IMG/VR virus record: IMGVR_UViG_3300005340_000007
Coordinates: 1 to 62,631 of that record
DNA length: 62,631 nt
Source: a virus
Strand: one strand, 5' to 3'
The notes beneath the pieces were generated by a model. It saw only the letters and a list, made by a program, of their open reading frames with translations. It was not told the DNA's origin and searched no databases. The position numbers were made by a program, and so were the translations under genes. This document shows, in pieces, positions 7,936 to 23,307 of the stretch. The stretch's first letter is position 1. Every line of letters starts with the position of its first letter.

Positions 7936-8406
7936 ATGACAAGAGCGGGCAAAGGGGTGGGCAAAGCATGGAGAGGCGGCATCGACAGCACGGCCGCGAG
8001 TCTGCGGGCATGCCTTTACCAGGTCGAGCGGAGCCGGATGGCGCTCAACGAGGCGCGCGCAACGCGGGATGCAAATGGGATCGGCACGGTCGAGCGCCAC
8101 ACAGCGACCTACCAGATGAGCAAGCTGCACGGCGAGTTGGCCGGCTGGACCCAGGCCGCGAAGGAATGGCAGGAGGAACTCGACGACCTGCACGCCGTCG
8201 CCGCGGAGGAGGCGGCAAAGGCCCAGCAGCAACTGGCGCTGAAGGACGAACAGCAGCGGCGGACGATGCTGGCGCTCAGCGCGCGACCGCCCACCGAGGT
8301 GGTCGAGCGTCCCGGTGCCGACGACGACGGCGATGCGGTGGAGCCGGAGCCCGAAGAGCGCGAGTCGGCGTGGGCCGACATCGGCGGCGCCGTGGGGGGC
8401 CGATGA
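7936..8406 (+). CDS. Hypothetical coiled-coil protein, 156 aa
   Basis: ATG 7936 follows a GGGAGG-type ribosome site. The central part (about residues 20-110) is a long charged helix likely to form a coiled coil (SLRACLYQVERSRMALNEAR; EEAAKAQQQLALKDEQQRR), and the C-terminus is acidic. Overlaps the sigma-like gene by 4 bases. Function unknown; position suggests a replication or transcription accessory role. Confidence 0.65.
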   Translation: MTRAGKGVGKAWRGGIDSTAASLRACLYQVERSRMALNEARATRDANGIGTVERHTATYQMSKLHGELAGWTQAAKEWQEELDDLHAVAAEEAAKAQQQLALKDEQQRRTMLALSARPPTEVVERPGADDDGDAVEPEPEERESAWADIGGAVGGR

Positions 8407-9101
8407 TGCTCCAGCTCCACTTCCCCTATCAGTGGGCCGACGTGCCGTCCGCCACCGGCAGGCGCCCGAAGCTGCCGGTGCGCCGGCGGATCCTCCACGG
8501 CGGGCCGCCGCCCGTCCAGACGGTGATCCCGACCGTGCGGCTTTGGGATGGCGGCACGACCGAGGGCAAGAGCACGCGCAAGTGCAGCCCGTTCGCGCGG
8601 GCCAAAACCATCAACGTCTCGAAGCTGTCGAAGCGCCAGCGCCAGGCGGCGCACAGCCGGAGCTTCTGGGACATCGACATCGAGGCGCTGCGGCCGCGCT
8701 TGCGCTCCGACTGCAAGGCGGGGCCGCGGCCGTGCCCATGGATCGGCTGCCGCCACCACACGGCGATCACGGTCGACCTCGAGCGCGGGTCGATCAAGGA
8801 GACATTCCCGCAGTTGCGGATCCTGGCCGAGCCGGACGGCGACGGGCTGCAGGTGCTCGAGCAGGTGGTGGGGACGTGCTCGCTCGACATCGCCGACAAG
8901 GCGGACGACGGGACGGAGGGCATCGGCGGGCTGCTGGCGCTCTACCAGTCGGCCAGCAGCGGCAAGCCGTTGGGCCAGGCGCCCGGCTTCACGATCGAGG
9001 AGACCGGCAAGGTGATGAACCTGTCGGTGGAGCGCGTGCGCCAGTTGGGCGGCCAGGCGATGCAGGAGGTCCGTGTGAAGCTGCGGGTGCTGGAACGATG
9101 A
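8403..9101 (+). CDS. Sigma-70 region-4-like HTH protein
   Basis: A 232-residue protein. The end (FTIEETGKVMNLSVERVRQLGGQAMQEVRVKLR, in two parts across residues 198-230) follows sigma-70 region 4 (E-E-V-G-x-x-L-x-V-S-x-E-R-V-R-Q). The middle has CPWIGCRHH (about 114-122) and a short strand-rich segment, then TCSLDIADK. This CPxxxCRHH plus HTH layout is common in myxobacterial proteins of unknown role. It may redirect RNA polymerase or act as a DNA-binding regulator; region 2 of a true sigma factor is absent. Confidence 0.7.
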   Translation: MMLQLHFPYQWADVPSATGRRPKLPVRRRILHGGPPPVQTVIPTVRLWDGGTTEGKSTRKCSPFARAKTINVSKLSKRQRQAAHSRSFWDIDIEALRPRLRSDCKAGPRPCPWIGCRHHTAITVDLERGSIKETFPQLRILAEPDGDGLQVLEQVVGTCSLDIADKADDGTEGIGGLLALYQSASSGKPLGQAPGFTIEETGKVMNLSVERVRQLGGQAMQEVRVKLRVLER

Positions 9102-9901
9102 CCACCCTCGTCCTGTCTCTATTCCCAGGCATCGGCCTGCTCGATCGCGCGTTCGAGGACGAGGGCTTCTGCGTGGTGCGCGGGCCCGACTTGTTATGGG
9201 GGGGGGACGTGCATAGGTTTCACCCGCCAGCGGGGCGTTTCGCCGGCGTGATCGGCGGCCCGCCATGCCAGCGGTTCAGTCGGCTGGCCGCGCTGGTCGT
9301 CCACAACGGCTTTGAGCTGGCGCCCGACTTGATCCCGGAGTTCGCGCGTGTCGTGCGTGAGGCGGAACCCGCGTGGTTCCTGATGGAGAACGTGCCGGCG
9401 GCGCCGATGCCGGTGCTCGAGCACTACCCGATGCGTTCGGTCCTCTTCAACAACCGGTGGGCCGGCGGCGAGCAGAACCGGGTGCGCCGCTTCACCTTCG
9501 GCGTTCGAGCGATGGGCCGGCTCATGGGGCCGGCGCTGCTGACCGCGTTCGAGCGCGAGCTGCGAGGGCAAGACGTTGGCTTCGAGAACATCGATTACAC
9601 ACCGGCGGTGTGCGCCAGCGGCTCGACTTGGCAGCCGGTTCGCGTCGGCGGTAGCGGCAAGCAGAAGCGCAAGGGGCGGGTTTACGGCGACAAGTCGACG
9701 ACGTTTCTGCGGCAGGCCATCAAGGCGCAGGGCTTGCCCGATGACTTCGACATCCCCGAGTTCACCGTCCGCGGCGCGATCAAGGCGGTCGGCAACGGCG
9801 TGCCGCTGCCTCTTGGGCGCGCGGTCGCCCGGGCGGTGAACGCTGCGCTCGCGCCCGGTGACGAGTCGCTACAACGCCCGGTCGTCCCGCCGGCCGCCTG
9901 A
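9098..9901 (+). CDS. C5-cytosine DNA methyltransferase
   Basis: A 267-residue m5C methyltransferase. Visible motifs: I, LSLFPGIGLLDRAFE (residues 6-20); IV, GGPPCQRFSR with catalytic Cys57; VI, FLMENVP (Glu97); VIII, QNRVRRF (126-132); X, GNGVPLPLGRAVA (232-244). The target-recognition region between VIII and X is short. No restriction enzyme gene is adjacent, so this is probably an orphan enzyme that protects phage DNA from host restriction or alters expression. The recognised sequence cannot be read from the gene. Confidence 0.93.
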   Translation: MTTLVLSLFPGIGLLDRAFEDEGFCVVRGPDLLWGGDVHRFHPPAGRFAGVIGGPPCQRFSRLAALVVHNGFELAPDLIPEFARVVREAEPAWFLMENVPAAPMPVLEHYPMRSVLFNNRWAGGEQNRVRRFTFGVRAMGRLMGPALLTAFERELRGQDVGFENIDYTPAVCASGSTWQPVRVGGSGKQKRKGRVYGDKSTTFLRQAIKAQGLPDDFDIPEFTVRGAIKAVGNGVPLPLGRAVARAVNAALAPGDESLQRPVVPPAA

Positions 9902-13503: not shown

Positions 13504-14016
13504 ATGAGCACGCGAAAACCGAGTCTGGCCTCGCAGAACCGAGGCCAGAAGGGGAAGAACCGAGGCCAAAAGAAGCCCAGGAGGCGGCAGGGGGGAAAGG
13601 GGAAACCCTTCCAGAAGGGCCAGCCGGATCTCCCTGGGAAACGCTTCGAGCCGGGCAACAACGCGAACCCCGGCGGGCGCCCACGCTCGCTCAAGGAGGT
13701 GAAGGAGCGCCTGCAGGTGAGGGCGGTGGACCTCGCTGACCGGCTGCTCGACATCGCGCTCAGCACGCGGACCGAAGACAAGGATGCGGTGCACGCCATC
13801 AAAGAGTCGTGGGATCGGGCCTTCGGACGCAGCGTCCAGGCCGTCGAGATCTCCGGCCCGGGCGGCGGCGCCGTGGAGACGCGGACTATCGATGAGATGA
13901 CGTCGGCCGAGCGCGGACGTCGGGTGGTGCAACTCTTCCGCAAAGCTGGCGCCAAGGTGGTCGCCCCCACCACGCCCAGCGGCGAGGACGGCAATGGCGG
14001 CGCCGGGGGCCCGTGA
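13504..14016 (+). CDS. Small terminase subunit-like protein (DUF5681-type)
   Basis: ATG 13504 is preferred over 13489 for its AGGGA ribosome site. The 170-residue protein starts with a Lys/Arg/Gln-rich stretch that includes a repeated NRGQK unit, then FQKGQ and NPGGRPRSLKEVKERL, the DUF5681 signature seen in proteins encoded just before terminase large subunits. A helical middle and Ala/Gly-rich tail follow. Predicted to recognise the packaging start. It overlaps the large subunit by 23 bases. Confidence 0.75.
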   Translation: MSTRKPSLASQNRGQKGKNRGQKKPRRRQGGKGKPFQKGQPDLPGKRFEPGNNANPGGRPRSLKEVKERLQVRAVDLADRLLDIALSTRTEDKDAVHAIKESWDRAFGRSVQAVEISGPGGGAVETRTIDEMTSAERGRRVVQLFRKAGAKVVAPTTPSGEDGNGGAGGP

Positions 14017-15511
14017 AGCTCCGCCATCGCTCGAGGATCTCGACCTTTCAACGGCGGACGTATCGCAGCTTTCACCTGAGGAGCAGGATGAACTCGACCG
14101 TCTCCTGGGTTCGGTCGACAAGGTCGAAGGGCTGCGTGAGTTCATAGCCCGGACCACGCCACACCATCCGGCGCCAGCGCACGTCCAGCCGATCATCGAC
14201 TGCATCGAGGAGGGGCGCGCCCGGCAATTGGCCGGCGCCATGCCCTTACGCGTCTGCGTCTCGATGCCCCCACGGCACGCCAAGAGCGAGACCCTGTTCA
14301 ACGGGTTGGCATGGTGGCTCTCGGTCGTTCCCGGGGATACCCACGCGTATCTCAGCTACAGCGTCCAGCAGGCCCTCTCGCAGAGCCGCAAGATTCGTCG
14401 ACGAGCCGTTGGAGGAGGGGTTGCGTTGAGCGCGGAAATGGCAAACCTCGCTGAGTGGCGAACGACCAGCGGCGGGGGCGTCTTTGCCTCCGGCGTCGAT
14501 GGGCCGCTCACGGGCAAGGGACTCACCGGCATGGCGATCATCGACGACCCGTTCAAGGGTCGCAAAGACGCCGACTCGCCGACTGTTCGAGAAAACGTGT
14601 GGGACTGGTTCACCGGCGTCGTGATGACCCGGCTCGAGGCCGCCTCCGTGATCGTCGTGCATACCCGGTGGCACGAGGACGATCTCATAGGGCGGCTTGA
14701 GCAGGAGCCTGGCTGGACCATCGTCAACCTGCCGGCGATCGCGGAGCAGGAGGATCCGCTTGGCCGGGCGCCAGGTGAAGCGCTCTGGCCGGAGATGCGG
14801 CCGCTCGGAATGCTGCTCGAGCAGCGCGCCCTCGACGCCTTCAACTTCGATGCGCTATACCAGGGCCGGCCGCGTCCGCGCGGGGCGACCGTCTTCAAGG
14901 ACGCGACCTATTACGATCCGGACACGTTCGACCGGACCGGCTGGCGCATCGTCATCTACGCCGATCCCGCGGCCAGCAAGCGGACCACCGCCAACCACAG
15001 CGCGATCCTAGCGCTGGCCGTTCAGGGCTACGGCATCGAGATGCAGGGGCGCATCCTCGACGTCTATCGCAAGCAGGTGGAGATCCCGGAGTTCGTGCGC
15101 GACCTGAGGGACTTCCAGGCGCGGAACGGGAACGCCGAGGCGCTGGTCGAATCGGTGGCTGGCTTCAAAGCCGTGGCGCAGATGCTGCGAGAGATCGATC
15201 CCGACGTGATGGTCAGGGAGGTGCAGCCACTGGGGGACAAGTTCCAGCGGGCCCAGCCGGCGGCCAGCGCGTGGAATGGCGATCCGGGCAAGCCCGATGC
15301 CGTGCCACCCAAGCCCCCCGTCCCGCCGCGGTTGATGCCTCCGCTGAATGCGCCCTGGCTCAAGAAGTTCCTTGCCGAGGTGAAGGTCTTCACCGGTGTG
15401 AACGACGCTGCCGACGACCAGGTCGACTGCTTGTCGGGCGCATGGAACGAAGCGGCCAACGTCGTCGAGTACATCCCACGCGGCAAGGCGACGCTGCCCC
15501 GCCGGCGCTAG
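13994..15511 (+). CDS. terL: Terminase large subunit
   Basis: A 505-residue packaging motor. ATPase: Walker A-like SMPPRHAKSE (residues 90-99) and Walker B MAIIDDPF (180-187), then HTRWHEDDLIGRL coupling motif (223-234). Nuclease: YADPAAS (Asp324), EALVESV (Glu386) and DDQVD (474-478). It cuts and packages DNA into the prohead through the portal. It ends in a TAG that overlaps the stop of a convergent minus-strand gene. TerL is of the large Terminase_6 type, not the Mu gp28 type. Confidence 0.95.
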   Translation: MAAPGAREAPPSLEDLDLSTADVSQLSPEEQDELDRLLGSVDKVEGLREFIARTTPHHPAPAHVQPIIDCIEEGRARQLAGAMPLRVCVSMPPRHAKSETLFNGLAWWLSVVPGDTHAYLSYSVQQALSQSRKIRRRAVGGGVALSAEMANLAEWRTTSGGGVFASGVDGPLTGKGLTGMAIIDDPFKGRKDADSPTVRENVWDWFTGVVMTRLEAASVIVVHTRWHEDDLIGRLEQEPGWTIVNLPAIAEQEDPLGRAPGEALWPEMRPLGMLLEQRALDAFNFDALYQGRPRPRGATVFKDATYYDPDTFDRTGWRIVIYADPAASKRTTANHSAILALAVQGYGIEMQGRILDVYRKQVEIPEFVRDLRDFQARNGNAEALVESVAGFKAVAQMLREIDPDVMVREVQPLGDKFQRAQPAASAWNGDPGKPDAVPPKPPVPPRLMPPLNAPWLKKFLAEVKVFTGVNDAADDQVDCLSGAWNEAANVVEYIPRGKATLPRRR

Positions 15512-15981: not shown

Positions 15982-16287
15982 GTGATCATCAGCTTCGACG
16001 ACGACGTCACGCGGGACCTTTTCAACGGGGTGAAGAACGCGCGGACCCGCCGCCTTCCGGCTGATGTCACCGTTCGCGCCCTCGACCGGCTGACGGCGCT
16101 CAACGTCGCCGCCTCGGTGTCAGACGTCAGCGTTCCGCCTTCGAACCGTCTCGAAAAGTTGGGCGGCAAGCTCGCCGCCTTCTGGTGCATCCGCGTCACC
16201 TTGCAATGGCGCCTCATCTTCCGCTGGGACGATGGCGCCGCCGGTCCGTCCGAGGTCCGGCTCGATAATCACAGCTATCGCGCCTGA
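15982..16287 (+). CDS. higB: HigB/RelE-type toxin (mRNA interferase)
   Basis: A 101-residue protein from GTG 15982. It shows the HigB fold pattern: VIISFDDDVTRDLFNG at the start, RALDRLTALNVAASVSDVSVPPSNRLEKLGGKLAAFW in the middle (the family usually has L-H-x-L-x-G-x-x-x-G-x-W), then IRVTLQWRLIFRWDDG and a C-terminal LDNHSY. Such toxins cut mRNA on the ribosome. The toxin precedes the antitoxin, the normal higBA order. In a temperate phage it may stabilise the prophage or act against competing phages. Confidence 0.85.
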   Translation: MIISFDDDVTRDLFNGVKNARTRRLPADVTVRALDRLTALNVAASVSDVSVPPSNRLEKLGGKLAAFWCIRVTLQWRLIFRWDDGAAGPSEVRLDNHSYRA

Positions 16288-16302
16288 AAAAGGAGACCCA
16301 CC

Positions 16303-16593
16303 ATGTTGCCCACCCATCGCGTATCGACTCACCCCGGGGAGCTGCTCAAGCGGCTGTTCCTCGAAGAAATGGAGATCACCCAGACCGCCTTGGCCGCGCA
16401 CACCGGCATGTCGGTGCAGCGGATCAACGAACTGTGTGCCGGCAAGCGTGGCGTGACGGCTGAGACCGCGTGGCTGCTGGCGCAGGCGCTGGGCACGTCG
16501 CCGGAGTTCTGGATGAATGCCCAGGTGGCGCACGATCTCACCAAGAGCCGGCCGGCCAAGAAATTGGCGCTGCTCAAAAGCCGGGCAGCGTGA
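16303..16593 (+). CDS. higA: HigA-type antitoxin, XRE-family HTH
   Basis: A 96-residue protein with a strong ribosome site (aaaaggag). It begins HRVSTHPGELLKRLFLEEM and has the HTH TQTALAAHTGMSVQRINELCAGKRG (about residues 26-50), then ETAWLLAQALGTSPEFWMNAQ, all typical of HigA/VapI antitoxins. It should neutralise the toxin and repress the shared promoter. The gene lies 15 bases after the toxin stop. Confidence 0.92.
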   Translation: MLPTHRVSTHPGELLKRLFLEEMEITQTALAAHTGMSVQRINELCAGKRGVTAETAWLLAQALGTSPEFWMNAQVAHDLTKSRPAKKLALLKSRAA

Positions 16594-17455: not shown

Positions 17456-19651
17456 GTGGCCAAACGCTCGACCAAGCAGCCCGCGAAGCCGGCACCAGCG
17501 CCAACAACGACGACCGAGCGGGCCCTGCCGGTCATCTCTGTTTATCGGCAGCACGACAAGGTCGAGCAGTTCCTGCAGCTGATGCGAGAGCACGACTTCG
17601 GCGTGTTCCAGCGCTCGGCGTCGCTGGTCGAAGAGACCATGACGGACGATCGGATCTACGGCGTCGCCAGCACCCGCATCGGCGCCATCCTATCGGCGCC
17701 GATGAAGTTCCAGCCCGCGTCGGAGGACACCCAGCCGCAAGAAATCGCAGATGAAATTGGCGGCACCAACGACCGCCGCGGCATCTGGGAGCAGATGTTC
17801 TCGACGTCCGCTGCCGCCGAGATCTTGAAATGGGGGCAGCACCTCGGGATCGGCTTCGGCAAGTTCGCCTGGGAGAAGACCGCCGAGCGATGGCAGCCAC
17901 GCCTCGTGCCGTGGCACCCGAGCTGCGTGCGATGGGATTGGCAGTCGCGCCGGTTCGTGGCGCAGACCGAGAGCGGGCGCTTCGTCGTTCTGCCCCGGCC
18001 CGATGAGCAGCCGCGCGGCGATGGCCAATGGTTCGTGTACTGCCCCTATGGGGTGGAGTACGGGTGGCGGTCGGCACTGATCAGGTCGTTGGCGTTCAAA
18101 TACTTGTCAAGGCAATGGACGGAGCGCGACCACGATCGCCTCAACGAGCGGCAGGGCATGGGGATCCTGAAAGCGATCGTCCCGCCGGGCAATTCGCAGC
18201 CTGCCCAGCGCGAGGAATTCTTCAGGACCCTCGAGGCGGTCGGCAATGAGGCCGTGGTGATGTGTCCCCAGAACGAGAAGGGGGAAGGCTACGACGTCGA
18301 GATCGCCGAGTTCACCGCGCGGACCTGGGAAAGCTTCAACACTCGCCGCCAGAACCTCGACACAGACATCGCCATCGTGATCCTCGGGCAGAACCTCACA
18401 ACCGAGGTGAAAGCAGGCTCGCGCGCGGCCGCCATGGTCCACGAGGTCCTGCGCATCGACAAAGCCCTGCAGGACGCGAAGCTCGGCCTGGCGCTGCGGG
18501 CGCAGATGCTGACCTGGTATTGCGAGTACAACCACGGCGATCCCGAGCTGGCGCCCACGCCCATCTACGAGGTGGAGCCGCCGACCGACGACAAGGGCGA
18601 GGCCGAAGCGCTCAAGCTGCTGGGCGAGGCAGGCAGCGCCCTCAAGACCGCCAACCCGCGGACCGACCTCGATGCAGTGTGGGAGTCCAACGGCATCCCG
18701 ATGATCTCCGAGGAGGAGTTCGCCGCCCAGCAGGCGGAGCGGGCTGAGCAGGCCGCTGCAGCGGCGGCGGAGGCTGCGAGGAACGCGCCGCCTGAAGGGG
18801 AGGGCGGCGGCGGGGGCGCCGGCGGCGAGGGTGGCCCGCCCAAGGGCGGCGGCTTCCCGTTCGCGAAGAAGAAGCCCGAGGCGCTGAGTGCCTTCGAGAT
18901 CAAGAAGCGCTACGAGTTCGCCGGCCTGCCCATCGCCGTCGAGAACGTCGCCGGATCGATCCGCCTCTGGACCGACGCCGATGGAAAAGAGACCGGCAGC
19001 ACGAAGATGCTGTGCGATTACGGCTTCATCGAGGGGCACCTGTCGGGTGACGGCGAAGAGCTCGATTGCTATGTGGGGCCCTTTGCCGAAGCGGCGGACG
19101 TCTACGTCGTGCACCAGCTCAAAGCGCCCGACTACCGCGGGCACGACGAGGACAAGGTGATGCTCGGCTTCTACAGCGCGGACGAGGCCAAGGCGTGCTT
19201 CCTTGCCCACCGCAGCGATGCACGCGCCTTCGGCAGCATGTCGGTGATCCCGCTCGAGCGGTTCAAGACCGCGCTCAACCGGCGGCCCGAAGGCTCGACC
19301 AGAAAGATCCGCGCGTCGATCGACACCGATCGGCTCGCGACCGCGCGGGCGTTGGTCGCGCTGGCCTCTCGCGGAAAGGGCGCTGCCCGGACCGCGGCGG
19401 GCAAGGCGCGCGCGGCGAGGTACCAGGACGCCCTCACCCAAAAGGCGATCGATGCCGGGGCGCGCGCGCTGGCCCCTGACCTCGAGCACCTGTTCGAGCA
19501 TGTCAGCAGGGCCAAGAGCCTGGCCGATCTGCGCAAGAAGCTCCCCGGTTTGCAGCACGGCATGGACCTCAAGAGGCTGGCGAAAGTGATCCAGCAGACC
19601 AACGTGCTGAGCAAGCTGGCCGGCATGGACGCGGCGACGAAAGAGACCTGA
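17456..19651 (+). CDS. Mu gp29-like portal (DUF935) with pyrophosphatase-like domain
   Basis: A 731-residue protein from GTG 17456. Residues about 35-410 match DUF935/Mu gp29 portal proteins (MREHDFGVFQRSASLVEETM, SAAAEILKWGQHLGIGFGKFAWEK, WTERDHDRLNERQGMGILKA, AIVILGQNLTTEVKAGSRAAAMVHEVL). A Glu/Ala helix and Gly-rich linker (420-468) follow. Residues about 487-608 look like an inorganic pyrophosphatase domain: GLPIAVENVAGSIR, DYGFIEG, GDGEELDCYVGP, DEDKVMLGF. Residues 620-731 are helical and resemble the usual DUF935 C-terminus (LEHLFEHVSRAKSLADLRKKLPGL). The extra domain thus sits between core and tail of the portal; the family is normally about 500 residues. Confidence 0.9.
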   Translation: MAKRSTKQPAKPAPAPTTTTERALPVISVYRQHDKVEQFLQLMREHDFGVFQRSASLVEETMTDDRIYGVASTRIGAILSAPMKFQPASEDTQPQEIADEIGGTNDRRGIWEQMFSTSAAAEILKWGQHLGIGFGKFAWEKTAERWQPRLVPWHPSCVRWDWQSRRFVAQTESGRFVVLPRPDEQPRGDGQWFVYCPYGVEYGWRSALIRSLAFKYLSRQWTERDHDRLNERQGMGILKAIVPPGNSQPAQREEFFRTLEAVGNEAVVMCPQNEKGEGYDVEIAEFTARTWESFNTRRQNLDTDIAIVILGQNLTTEVKAGSRAAAMVHEVLRIDKALQDAKLGLALRAQMLTWYCEYNHGDPELAPTPIYEVEPPTDDKGEAEALKLLGEAGSALKTANPRTDLDAVWESNGIPMISEEEFAAQQAERAEQAAAAAAEAARNAPPEGEGGGGGAGGEGGPPKGGGFPFAKKKPEALSAFEIKKRYEFAGLPIAVENVAGSIRLWTDADGKETGSTKMLCDYGFIEGHLSGDGEELDCYVGPFAEAADVYVVHQLKAPDYRGHDEDKVMLGFYSADEAKACFLAHRSDARAFGSMSVIPLERFKTALNRRPEGSTRKIRASIDTDRLATARALVALASRGKGAARTAAGKARAARYQDALTQKAIDAGARALAPDLEHLFEHVSRAKSLADLRKKLPGLQHGMDLKRLAKVIQQTNVLSKLAGMDAATKET

Positions 19652-19695
19652 CCGGGAAGTGGGGACGGCGCGCACGGGCGCGCACAATCGGACCC

Positions 19696-19923
19696 ATGGC
19701 ACAGACCGCAGAGGGCAATGCGCTGACCCCGCAAGAGCGCGCGCGGATGTGCACGTCGAAGAGGCGTTTCGTCAAGGAGGGCCTGGCGATGGATTTCGTC
19801 GTGAAGTGCATCCAGCGCCGCGTCTTCCCTCGTGGGCGCGTCTACAAGTGCCCCGTGTGCGCCGGCTGGCATGTGACCTCGCAGGCCACGGCGGCACCCT
19901 CACGGCTCGCGGCCCACGGCTGA
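19696..19923 (+). CDS. Small zinc-ribbon protein, 75 aa
   Basis: A 75-residue protein with CTSKRRF near residue 19 and YKCPVCAGWHVTSQ near 50. This layout (Cys-x-SK-x-x-F, then C-x-x-C-x-GWH-x-TS) is common in small phage and actinobacterial proteins of unknown role. Located between portal and minor head genes. Confidence 0.65.
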   Translation: MAQTAEGNALTPQERARMCTSKRRFVKEGLAMDFVVKCIQRRVFPRGRVYKCPVCAGWHVTSQATAAPSRLAAHG

Positions 19924-19929
19924 TCCACC

Positions 19930-20616
19930 ATGGCGCCGCCCGATCCGCCCGCCGACCCCGATCGGTTCGAGGAGGCGATCCGCGCATTCCGCGCGCGCGT
20001 GCCAATGACCGACGCCGCGTTCGCGCAGCTGGTGGATGGCGAGGAGCAGAAGGCCTTTCGCGTCGCCGGGCTCACGCAGGCGCGCGCGGTGCAGGAGGTG
20101 ATGGACGCACTTGACCGCGCCATCGCCGACGGCACCACGCTCGAAGACTTCCAGGCAGAGGTCGGCGGCATGCTGGCCGAGGCCTGGGGCGGGGAGGATG
20201 CGCCGCGGGTCGAGACCCTATTTCGCACCAACGTGATGCAGGCCTACAACGACGGCCGCGCCGAGGTGTTCGCCGATCCGGAGGTCAGAAAGTCTCGGCC
20301 TTACCTGCGTTTCGATGCGGTGGGAGACTCGCGCACCTCGGAGATCTGCGAGGCGCTCGACGGCAGGGTGTTGCCCGCCGACGACCCGTTCTGGCGCACG
20401 CACTCGCCGCCGCTGCACCCGAACTGCCGCTCGATCCTGACGCCGCTGACGGACGAGGAGGCGGCCGACGAGGGCATCACGCGCGGCAAGCCGGACGTCG
20501 GTGACGCCGCGCCGGCCGAGGGCTTCGGCAAGACCGCCGACAACGACAATTGGGAGCCGGACACCAGTGGCCTCGACCCCGCCGTGCGCAAGGTCTTCAA
20601 GGAGCGCATCGAATAG
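19930..20616 (+). CDS. Minor head protein, Mu gpF/gp30-like (SPP1 gp7 family)
   Basis: A 228-residue protein ending in the head-morphogenesis domain: ETLFRTNVMQAYNDGRAEVF (about residues 95-114), YLRFDAVGDSRTSEICEALDG, and HSPPLHPNCRSILTPLTDEE. These are hallmark motifs of the SPP1 gp7 / Mu gp30 family, which works with the portal during prohead assembly and may be injected with DNA. Placement right after the portal fits. Confidence 0.92.
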   Translation: MAPPDPPADPDRFEEAIRAFRARVPMTDAAFAQLVDGEEQKAFRVAGLTQARAVQEVMDALDRAIADGTTLEDFQAEVGGMLAEAWGGEDAPRVETLFRTNVMQAYNDGRAEVFADPEVRKSRPYLRFDAVGDSRTSEICEALDGRVLPADDPFWRTHSPPLHPNCRSILTPLTDEEAADEGITRGKPDVGDAAPAEGFGKTADNDNWEPDTSGLDPAVRKVFKERIE

Positions 20617-20692: not shown

Positions 20693-21856
20693 ATGCCCGC
20701 GAAACCGGCAAAGAACCTCCGCACCGCCGCCCTCGGCCTCGTCGATCTATTCGACGGGGTCGGCGCCGGCGCGGACGCCAAGGCGCCGCCGTCTGAGTTC
20801 CGCATCTTCAAGCGGGGCGTCAACTCGTCGGTCAAGGGTGACTTCCTCTTCGACGACCAGGCCGCCGAGCTGGTGATGGCTGCGTACGCCGAGCACGGGG
20901 TCGAGCTCACGATCGACTACGACCACCACACCCTGCTGACCGGGTCCGGCGTCAAGGCGATCTCGGCCGGCTGGTTCGGCCTCGAGCTGCGCGACGGCGA
21001 TCTCTGGGCGTGCAACGTCCGCTGGACGCCCGCAGCCACGGCCCACCTGGAGGCCGGCGAATACCGATACATGTCGCCGCTGTTCAACAGCGACATGCAG
21101 ACGGGACGCATCGAGAAGGTTCTCGACGTCGCCCTCACCAACACCCCTGCGCTCTTTGACATCGATGCCCTTGTGGCGGCCAGCGCCCACACCAACACGG
21201 ACGGAGGAGACCCAATGGATCCCAAGCTGAAAGAGGCGCTCGACCGCATCGCCGAGCTCGAACGCCAGACCGCCGCCAAGGACGCGCAGATTCGATCGCT
21301 GGAGGGGCAGACCGCCGCGGTCGCGCTTTCGGCCACCGTGGGGCTCGCGACCAACGCGACGCCCGAGGAGGTCCGCGCCCGCGTGGTGGCGCTGTCCACG
21401 TTCCGAAAGGACGTGCTCGCCATCGCTGGCAAGGACCAGGATCACCTCGCCATCGGAGCGCTCAGTGCGATGAAGGAGCAGGCCGGAGAAGTCGTCGCCC
21501 TGCGGACGCAGGTCGAGACAGCCGAAACCGCGGCCCTGAGCGCCGAGTTCAAGTCTTACCTCGACGGCCTGTCGACCAAGGGCGCCGACGGAAAGTCCTT
21601 GCCGCCCGCGGCACGACAAGCGGCAGAGAAGATGGCCCTGTCGATCGGCGGCGGAAAACTCACCAAGAACGGCATCGAAGCTGCCAAGGAGTTCATCCCT
21701 CCGATGATGCGCGTGGCTGACGGTGCAGGCGACGGCGAGAAGCCTGCCAAGGGCACGGTCGCACTCTCGGCCGAGATGCCCAAGATGCTCAAGAACATGG
21801 GCATCAATCGAGACGCCTTCATCAAGGACCAGGAAAAGCGGCTGGCCGGCGGGTAA
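20693..21856 (+). CDS. Head maturation protease/scaffold, Mu gpI-like
   Basis: A 387-residue protein. The N-terminal part matches the Mu-like I protein: FRIFKRGVNSSVKGDFLFDD, ELTIDYDHHTLL, AISAGWFGLELRDGDLWA, TAHLEAGEYRYMSPLF, VALTNTPALFDIDALVAAS. The C-terminal half is a coiled-coil, Ala/Glu-rich scaffold. Predicted to guide capsid assembly and then cleave the scaffold. An internal start for the scaffold part is listed separately. Confidence 0.9.
   Translation: MPAKPAKNLRTAALGLVDLFDGVGAGADAKAPPSEFRIFKRGVNSSVKGDFLFDDQAAELVMAAYAEHGVELTIDYDHHTLLTGSGVKAISAGWFGLELRDGDLWACNVRWTPAATAHLEAGEYRYMSPLFNSDMQTGRIEKVLDVALTNTPALFDIDALVAASAHTNTDGGDPMDPKLKEALDRIAELERQTAAKDAQIRSLEGQTAAVALSATVGLATNATPEEVRARVVALSTFRKDVLAIAGKDQDHLAIGALSAMKEQAGEVVALRTQVETAETAALSAEFKSYLDGLSTKGADGKSLPPAARQAAEKMALSIGGGKLTKNGIEAAKEFIPPMMRVADGAGDGEKPAKGTVALSAEMPKMLKNMGINRDAFIKDQEKRLAGG
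21215..21856 (+). CDS. Nested scaffold protein from internal start (Mu gpZ-like)
   Basis: An in-frame ATG at 21215 is preceded by ACGGAGGAGA, one of the strongest ribosome sites in the window, inside the gpI-like gene. It would give a 213-residue product consisting only of the coiled-coil scaffold (MDPKLKEALDRIAELERQ onward). Mu and lambda both make a scaffold from an internal start within the protease gene. Confidence 0.7.
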   Translation: MDPKLKEALDRIAELERQTAAKDAQIRSLEGQTAAVALSATVGLATNATPEEVRARVVALSTFRKDVLAIAGKDQDHLAIGALSAMKEQAGEVVALRTQVETAETAALSAEFKSYLDGLSTKGADGKSLPPAARQAAEKMALSIGGGKLTKNGIEAAKEFIPPMMRVADGAGDGEKPAKGTVALSAEMPKMLKNMGINRDAFIKDQEKRLAGG

Positions 21857-22362: not shown

Positions 22363-23307
22363 ATGGACATCATTCCGGCAAATCTCGACAGCTTCTTCAA
22401 GACCCTCGACTTCCGCTTCCGCATGGGGCAGGCGGCGCCCGACACCTTCTATCGGGAGCTAGCCACCATCGTGCCGTCGAGCACGAGCGCCAACATCTAT
22501 CCCTGGTTGGCGAAGATCCCGCAGTTGCGGGAGTGGGTGGGCCCGCGGGTCATTCACAACATCTCGGTGCGGAGCTATGAGCTGCGCAACAAGAAGTTCG
22601 AAGACACGATCGCGGTCGAAAAGGACCACCTGGCCGACGACCAGTATGGCTTCTATGGCGACGTCGCGGGGATGCTGGGGTCCGAGGTGGAAGAGTTCCC
22701 GGACCGCAAGATCGCTGAGGCGCTCGAGGCGGGCACCACGGAGCTGTGCTGGGATGGCCAGTTCTTCTTCGACACCGATCATCCGATCGATCCCGACGGC
22801 ATCGTCTCTGGCACCAACAGCAACAAGCTGGTGGGCGCCGGTTACGACATCGCCGTCGCTGACCCGCTCGTGCCCTTCAGCGCGGCCCGCTCCGCGATGA
22901 TGCTGTGGAAGCGAGAGGACGGCCAACAGATGGGCACCGTTGGCGACACCATCATGGTGCACCCCAACGAGGAGAAGTATGGCCTGCAGATCGCCAACGC
23001 GATCAACCTCGGTCAGGCGATCGGTTCGGCGGCCGCCGCCAACACCAACGTCTACCAGGGAAAGGTGCGGGTCATCGTGAACCCCTACCTGAGGGTCACG
23101 AGCGGTCGTCCTTGGTACTTGTTGGCGACGAAGAAGGCGGTCAAGCCGCTGCTCTGGCAGGTGCGCCAAGAGGCGGTCCTCACCGCCAAGACCAACCTCA
23201 CCGACGACAACGTCTTCTGGCAGCAGCAGTTCATCTGGGGCGTCGACCTGCGGGCGGCCGCCGGGTACTCGTTCCCGTTCCTCGCCTTCCGCATGTCGGC
23301 CTCGTAA
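22363..23307 (+). CDS. Major capsid protein, Mu gpT-like
   Basis: A 314-residue protein of the Mu gpT family: LDSFFKTLDFRFRMGQ, ANIYPWLAKIPQLREWVGPRVI, SYELRNKKFEDTIAVEKDHLADDQYG, CWDGQFFFDTDHPI, and QQFIWGVDLRAAAGYSFPFLAF near the C-terminus. It forms the icosahedral head with an HK97-type fold. A strong ribosome site (gaggag) and a stem-loop just downstream fit high expression. Confidence 0.95.
   Translation: MDIIPANLDSFFKTLDFRFRMGQAAPDTFYRELATIVPSSTSANIYPWLAKIPQLREWVGPRVIHNISVRSYELRNKKFEDTIAVEKDHLADDQYGFYGDVAGMLGSEVEEFPDRKIAEALEAGTTELCWDGQFFFDTDHPIDPDGIVSGTNSNKLVGAGYDIAVADPLVPFSAARSAMMLWKREDGQQMGTVGDTIMVHPNEEKYGLQIANAINLGQAIGSAAAANTNVYQGKVRVIVNPYLRVTSGRPWYLLATKKAVKPLLWQVRQEAVLTAKTNLTDDNVFWQQQFIWGVDLRAAAGYSFPFLAFRMSAS

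Follow-up and report, generated by a model that had tools for sequence, protein, structure and literature searches.

The InPase domain (PF18823) of phage and plasmid polyvalent proteins is found in virion-linked proteins and lacks a hairpin segment of the cellular inorganic pyrophosphatases (PPases). Its fusion to a portal protein, in phage BcepF1, its injection and its action on nucleotides or pyrophosphate (PPi) were all proposed by Iyer et al. in 2017 (PMC5512222). The BcepF1 portal belongs to the DUF1073 family, as do those of Wifcevirus F13, Luteibacter phage Pluto and the other named-phage portal fusions that we checked. The portal structures of Pa193 and E217 (gp19, 765 amino acids) contain no modelled residue beyond 528 (PMC11042391, PMC10329688), which fits either flexibility or removal, and the E217 portal barrel is ordered only when DNA is present (PMC10329688). 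We find the InPase match of Pa193 gp19 at residues 636–751. In Mu, the virion portal lacks its last 124 residues, an absence that its discoverers put down to protease I (PMC11915804).

Here we describe a Mu-type (DUF935) portal in which an InPase domain is nested ahead of the C-terminal helices. It is encoded in the IMG/VR virus record IMGVR_UViG_3300005340_000007, the whole of which (62,631 nucleotides, 62.6 kb) was analysed and is called the window below. The head genes and the parts of the portal are arranged as follows.

13994..15511, plus strand: terminase large subunit (Pfam)
17456..19651, plus strand: DUF935 (Mu-type) portal with nested InPase domain, 731 amino acids (Pfam; PDB fold match to the JBD30 and Mu portals)
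17621..18640, plus strand: portal core, residues 56–395 (Portal_Mu, PF06074; Pfam)
18653..18655, plus strand: residue 400, counterpart of Mu portal residue 388 in a gappy local alignment (placement ± about 10 residues); beyond 388 the Mu virion portal is missing
18797..18901, plus strand: disordered Gly-rich linker, residues 448–482 (AlphaFold2 (AF2) pLDDT < 50)
18902..19276, plus strand: InPase domain, PF18823, residues 483–607 (Pfam; profile searches; AF2 fold)
18941..18943, plus strand: E496, aligned with E. coli PPase E20 (present in 82/83 family members)
19019..19066, plus strand: Y522 to D537, reading YGF...D532-G-E534-E-L-D537, aligned with PPase Y55, D65, D67 and D70 (profile alignments)
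19145..19156, plus strand: D564-E565-D566-K567, likely counterpart of PPase D102/K104, exact register not settled (profile alignment)
19319..19387, plus strand: second disordered linker, residues 622–644 (AF2 pLDDT, most < 50)
19394..19645, plus strand: C-terminal helices, residues 647–730, common to Mu-type portals without InPase (alignment; AF2)
19930..20616, plus strand: MuF-like minor head protein (PF04233; Pfam)
20693..21856, plus strand: Mu I-like maturation protease/scaffold (PF10123; Pfam), candidate cutter of the portal tail by inference from Mu
22363..23307, plus strand: Mu gpT-like major head protein (Pfam)

Further downstream, matches to DUF2586 and baseplate-wedge families suggest a contractile tail. 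A HigBA-type toxin-antitoxin pair sits inside the head gene cassette, between terminase and portal (15982–16593): a HigB-like toxin (PF05015, E 8.8e-15) and, behind it, an ORF resembling HTH antitoxins (16303–16593). About 280 bases between portal and MuF (19652–19929) hold no clear gene, which is unusual in a tight head operon, and upstream of the head genes an ORF at 8315–9901 has a partial match to C-5 cytosine methylases. The first 20 kb of the window retrieved no useful close DNA relatives from the phage collection.

The portal had drawn attention, from sequence alone, as an oversized DUF935 protein with pyrophosphatase-like motifs, and both points hold. Translated from a GTG start codon, it has 731 residues against 512 in Mu, 487 in MMP7 and 559 in Mx4; it matches PF06074 (E 9.5e-46, 157.1 bits against a cut-off of 23.9), has no match to PF06381 (Phage_portal_3, DUF1073), and its AF2 model finds the JBD30 and Mu portals as closest PDB folds. 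DYGFIEG, GDGEELDCYV and DEDKVML lie at residues 521–527, 531–540 and 564–570. The resemblance to InPase is confirmed by PF18823, which covers residues 483–607, close to the 487–608 first suggested, with 97.5 bits against a curated gathering cut-off of 26.8 (E 7.8e-28). In the whole-portal AF2 model this folded domain follows a disordered stretch (448–482), whose Gly-rich part, at about 448–470, is the linker noted by the sequence-only reading, and is followed by a mostly disordered segment (622–644) and the helices (647–730).

The portals of Mu, Mx4 (a Myxococcus phage) and MMP7 (a Meiothermus phage) align with this protein in two stretches, one up to about residue 440 and one spanning about 640–731, and they lack the block between. 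The domain is therefore a true internal insertion between portal core and C-terminal helices, where the sequence-only reading had placed it. The same comparison rules out the alternative that it had named as fatal, an ordinary clip or crown segment general to DUF935 portals, since related portals lack the block. A frameshift or assembly artefact is excluded by the recurrence of the nested form in separate contigs, and a chance motif match by the PF18823 score together with the PDB profile and fold searches.

Comparison with type I pyrophosphatases, the check proposed at the outset, gave matches by PDB profile search, profile–profile comparison and AF2 fold search. Searched against the PDB, a profile of 83 InPase sequences retrieved only the portal of phage Pa193 (E 6.5e-33) and 32 inorganic pyrophosphatase sequences (best E about 7e-4; one of the 32 labelled only by its target code). 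Against a profile of six cellular PPases, the InPase profile scored a probability of 96% (E 2e-9). An AF2 model of the isolated domain (pLDDT 91.8) found inorganic pyrophosphatases at all of the best 50 PDB fold matches listed. The superposition was moderate, at a TM of about 0.5 and an rmsd of about 7 Å. The classical PPase profile PF00719 reached 12.8 bits on the portal, below its gathering cut-off of 23.5. In the profile alignment a gap of 8–10 residues faces the PPase VDRF segment, judging from sequence; this agrees with the missing hairpin by which Iyer et al. define the InPase group, and a β-hairpin between the first and second core strands appears to be lacking here too. Identity and fold thus come from four independent routes, and both the assignment of the block as a genuine pyrophosphatase-fold domain of the InPase family and its placement are well supported.

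Much of the active site is recognisable. Y522, G523, D532, D537, D564 and E565 are invariant in the 83 InPase sequences, and E496 (82/83), R503 and K567 nearly so, while position 534 is D or E in 80/83; the patterns used for retrieval through InPase were built on DG-x-x-x-D and DE-x-K, a choice that tends to select for those acids. D532, D537, D564 and E565 are also present in the portals found with a portal query (L093, L094, L095 and L098; 4/4). The four acids expected of the family for two metals are these same residues, with E496 close behind. In alignment with E. coli PPase, with the residue numbers and functions generally given for type I PPases, E496 corresponds to E20, Y522 to Y55, D532 to D65, E534 to D67 and D537 to D70; R43 falls in the alignment gap, and K29, Y141 and K142 could not be placed reliably. 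With the acids conserved and these other residues missing or unplaced, the metal site looks intact and the phosphate-binding set may differ from that of classical PPases. Such residues, and the sub-threshold PF00719 score, could also mean that catalysis has been lost and that InPase now serves the portal tail for binding or as a spacer. We think this very unlikely: few positions in the family are as conserved as the presumed metal-binding acids, and the domain appears to be more strongly constrained than its portal.

That constraint emerges from the 55 pairs of InPase-bearing portals, which are not independent of one another. InPase identity exceeded that of the portal in 55/55, with medians of 62% (InPase), 46% (core) and 38% (C-terminal helices); in the nearest pair, the window and L093, InPase stands at 74% against 50%. 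pS is alike for InPase and core (0.49 and 0.50, near saturation), and pN/pS is 0.51 for InPase against 0.77 for the core. Six of the eleven InPase portals were retrieved through InPase, which biases the comparison towards its conservation, and those retrieved through the portal query point in the same direction. InPase thus appears, from these alignments, to be more conserved and under stronger constraint than its carrier. Recent acquisition is not favoured as the cause, because the synonymous divergence of InPase equals that of the core.

A search for other DUF935 portals with the same insertion, likewise suggested from the sequence, was productive. Portal-based and InPase-based scans of uncultured viral contigs yielded ten distinct further nested portals (L093, L094, L095 with identical copies, L098, L173, L174, L175, L178, L180 and L181). 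The C-terminal helices were recognised too in 8/10; the contigs of L098 and L180 stop before reaching them. A tree of portal cores groups the nested portals with seven domain-less ones in a 19-row clade (support 100/99), an arrangement that one gain and one loss, or two gains, of InPase would explain. L104, unlabelled in this clade, was considered as a domain loss and rejected, as it is merely cut by the contig end. Because the seven portals without the domain form a sister clade, InPase is not essential; a sister phage record of 57 kb, which may be incomplete, has no InPase match anywhere. Among genome contigs, a scan with a single portal protein found nothing, and one with the portal alignment found DUF935 portals, and among the 80 retained no portal carried InPase. 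In 385 genomes of one class, chosen via an alphaproteobacterial locus, one InPase scored above the cut-off, in a 198-residue frame. The tails of some contig portals have other features. By eye, those of L178 (340–3132) and L106 (3962–5755) share a similar NEVRAxxGLPPL...DGELTVADYQAKHA-like segment, which L178 has in addition to InPase. DUF935 portal and MuF are fused in one chain in L164 (245–2890), L025 (3947–6268), L029 (3935–6127), L046 (3803–6121) and L165 (3977–6160). The L164 chain ends in a PBECR2 nuclease domain, so that here too a portal tail carries an enzyme.

InPase also rides on other proteins. In the InPase tree, which rests on few columns and whose fine branching is unsure, one 13-row clade (support 99) holds all DUF935-portal domains together with two others. 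One, from L179, is on a DUF1073 portal; the other, L177 (3995–6289), is fused ahead of a Mu I-like protease region (22.4 bits, just under the 25.2 cut-off). The L177 phage also has a DUF935 portal; the contig edge truncates its start, and its long tail is of a different kind. More distant InPase domains are fused to a clear Mu I-like protease (PF10123) in L157 (3800–7624) and to an XkdF-type protease (PF14550) in L005 (1967–3922). In L002 (5947–7782) InPase stands at the N-terminus of a 611-residue ORF whose remainder looks glycosyltransferase-like by eye. The portals and proteases among these carriers are all expected inside the procapsid, and the presence of one subfamily on a DUF1073 portal and a Mu-type protease suggests that the InPase cargo moves among head-interior carriers.

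We consider a cargo inside the head the most likely role of InPase. Since the portal is dodecameric, twelve copies would be built into each procapsid. The residue that aligns with Mu 388 lies upstream of InPase, so the domain falls wholly within the part corresponding to the removable tail of Mu. The Mu I-like protease probably cuts here inside the head, as the tail lies beyond the point where protease I is thought to cut the Mu portal, and would release an InPase-plus-helices fragment. This fragment could then leave the head with the DNA and hydrolyse a phosphoanhydride, either a low-abundance nucleotide signal or PPi, in the newly infected cell. Taken together, a metal-dependent phosphohydrolase carried in the flexible portal tail, released by the protease, ejected with DNA and cleaving phosphoanhydrides has, in our judgement, an even chance of being right; its activity, substrate, cleavage, ejection and benefit to the phage are all inferred. 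A bolder version is doubtful: InPase would be a mobile capsid cargo exchanged among unrelated carriers (DUF935 portals, DUF1073 portals and maturation proteases) and, once the protease had released it, would be injected to degrade a nucleotide that serves host defence as an alarm.

Several observations weigh against the cargo reading. As a portal is normally retained in the capsid, ejection would require the presumed cut, and missing portal density can reflect mere flexibility; the PF00719 score, the absent or unplaced R43, K29, Y141 and K142, the moderate superposition and the domain-less sister clade count in the same direction. The enzyme might instead stay tethered to the portal and work in assembly or packaging, for example on procapsid nucleotides or PPi, without being injected. 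Portal tails point into the head, the ordering of the E217 barrel depends on the presence of DNA, and InPase is kept even where a protease is the carrier (L177, L157). We nevertheless hold this to be quite improbable, given that mature Mu virions no longer have the tail region and that a sister group with a near-identical head-gene type does without InPase. An active pyrophosphatase could also clear PPi around the phage polymerases, whether soon after infection starts or in the cell that makes the virions, and so aid transcription and replication instead of counteracting defence, an option already raised by Iyer et al. (PMC5512222) and compatible with the fold and the conserved metal-site acids. 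This too seems unlikely. By our estimate twelve copies amount to about 20 nM in a 1-fL cell, which would add little to host PPase and seems too little for bulk PPi, but enough for a rare nucleotide signal, and some classical PPi-binding residues are missing or unplaced.

Should the cargo reading be true, the removable tail of Mu-type portals would be a ready-made slot that loads twelve enzyme copies per phage head, and InPase an enzyme that has changed carriers and yet kept its sequence well conserved. The phage records with an InPase match number 408, most of them Pseudomonas phages; the 13 named phage records matching this DUF935 portal are absent from the InPase matches listed. Our searches also retrieved InPase-portal phages that grow on E. 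coli (Wifcevirus and several Bas-numbered phages), which puts an old prediction within reach of a direct test. In the openly accessible literature we found nothing on the nested DUF935–InPase form, on its overlap with the removable tail or on a subfamily common to several carriers, and none on the biochemistry of PF18823.

Compared with known systems, the portal has the core of Mu gp29, Mx4, MMP7 and JBD30 gp32, the C-terminal helices of the Mu, Mx4 and MMP7 portals and, as in their cassettes, a Mu I-type protease close by; those four proteins have no InPase and a much shorter tail from core to helices. The inserted domain shares with type I inorganic pyrophosphatases (PF00719) the fold, the YGF/DGDxxD motif and several metal-binding acids, but lacks the R43 segment, scores under the PF00719 cut-off and leaves some substrate residues unplaced. 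It belongs to the same family as the InPase of polyvalent proteins; those proteins combine several disparate activities in one packaged polypeptide, and here one portal and one enzyme domain share a chain that is presumably packaged. The DUF1073 portals (Phage_portal_3, PF06381) of the Pbunavirus phages Pa193 and E217, of Wifcevirus F13 and of Pluto likewise join portal and InPase in one chain, with InPase in the head-facing part and probably twelve copies per virion. Their family is unrelated to DUF935 by Pfam, and in named phages InPase lies near the C-terminus; in L243, an exception among the DUF1073 fusions, about 115 residues follow it. In BcepF1, InPase comes after the portal region, whereas here it is nested before conserved helices. 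T4 Alt, which is injected, phage P1 DarB and MuF-PBECR head cargo (PMC5512222) are also enzymes carried by or packed with head proteins, although enzymes and carriers differ from portal and InPase. That a portal might bring an InPase into the cell has thus been suggested before (PMC5512222). What this analysis adds is an InPase nested in a DUF935 portal, its overlap with the stretch presumably removed in Mu, and signs that the domain changes carriers.
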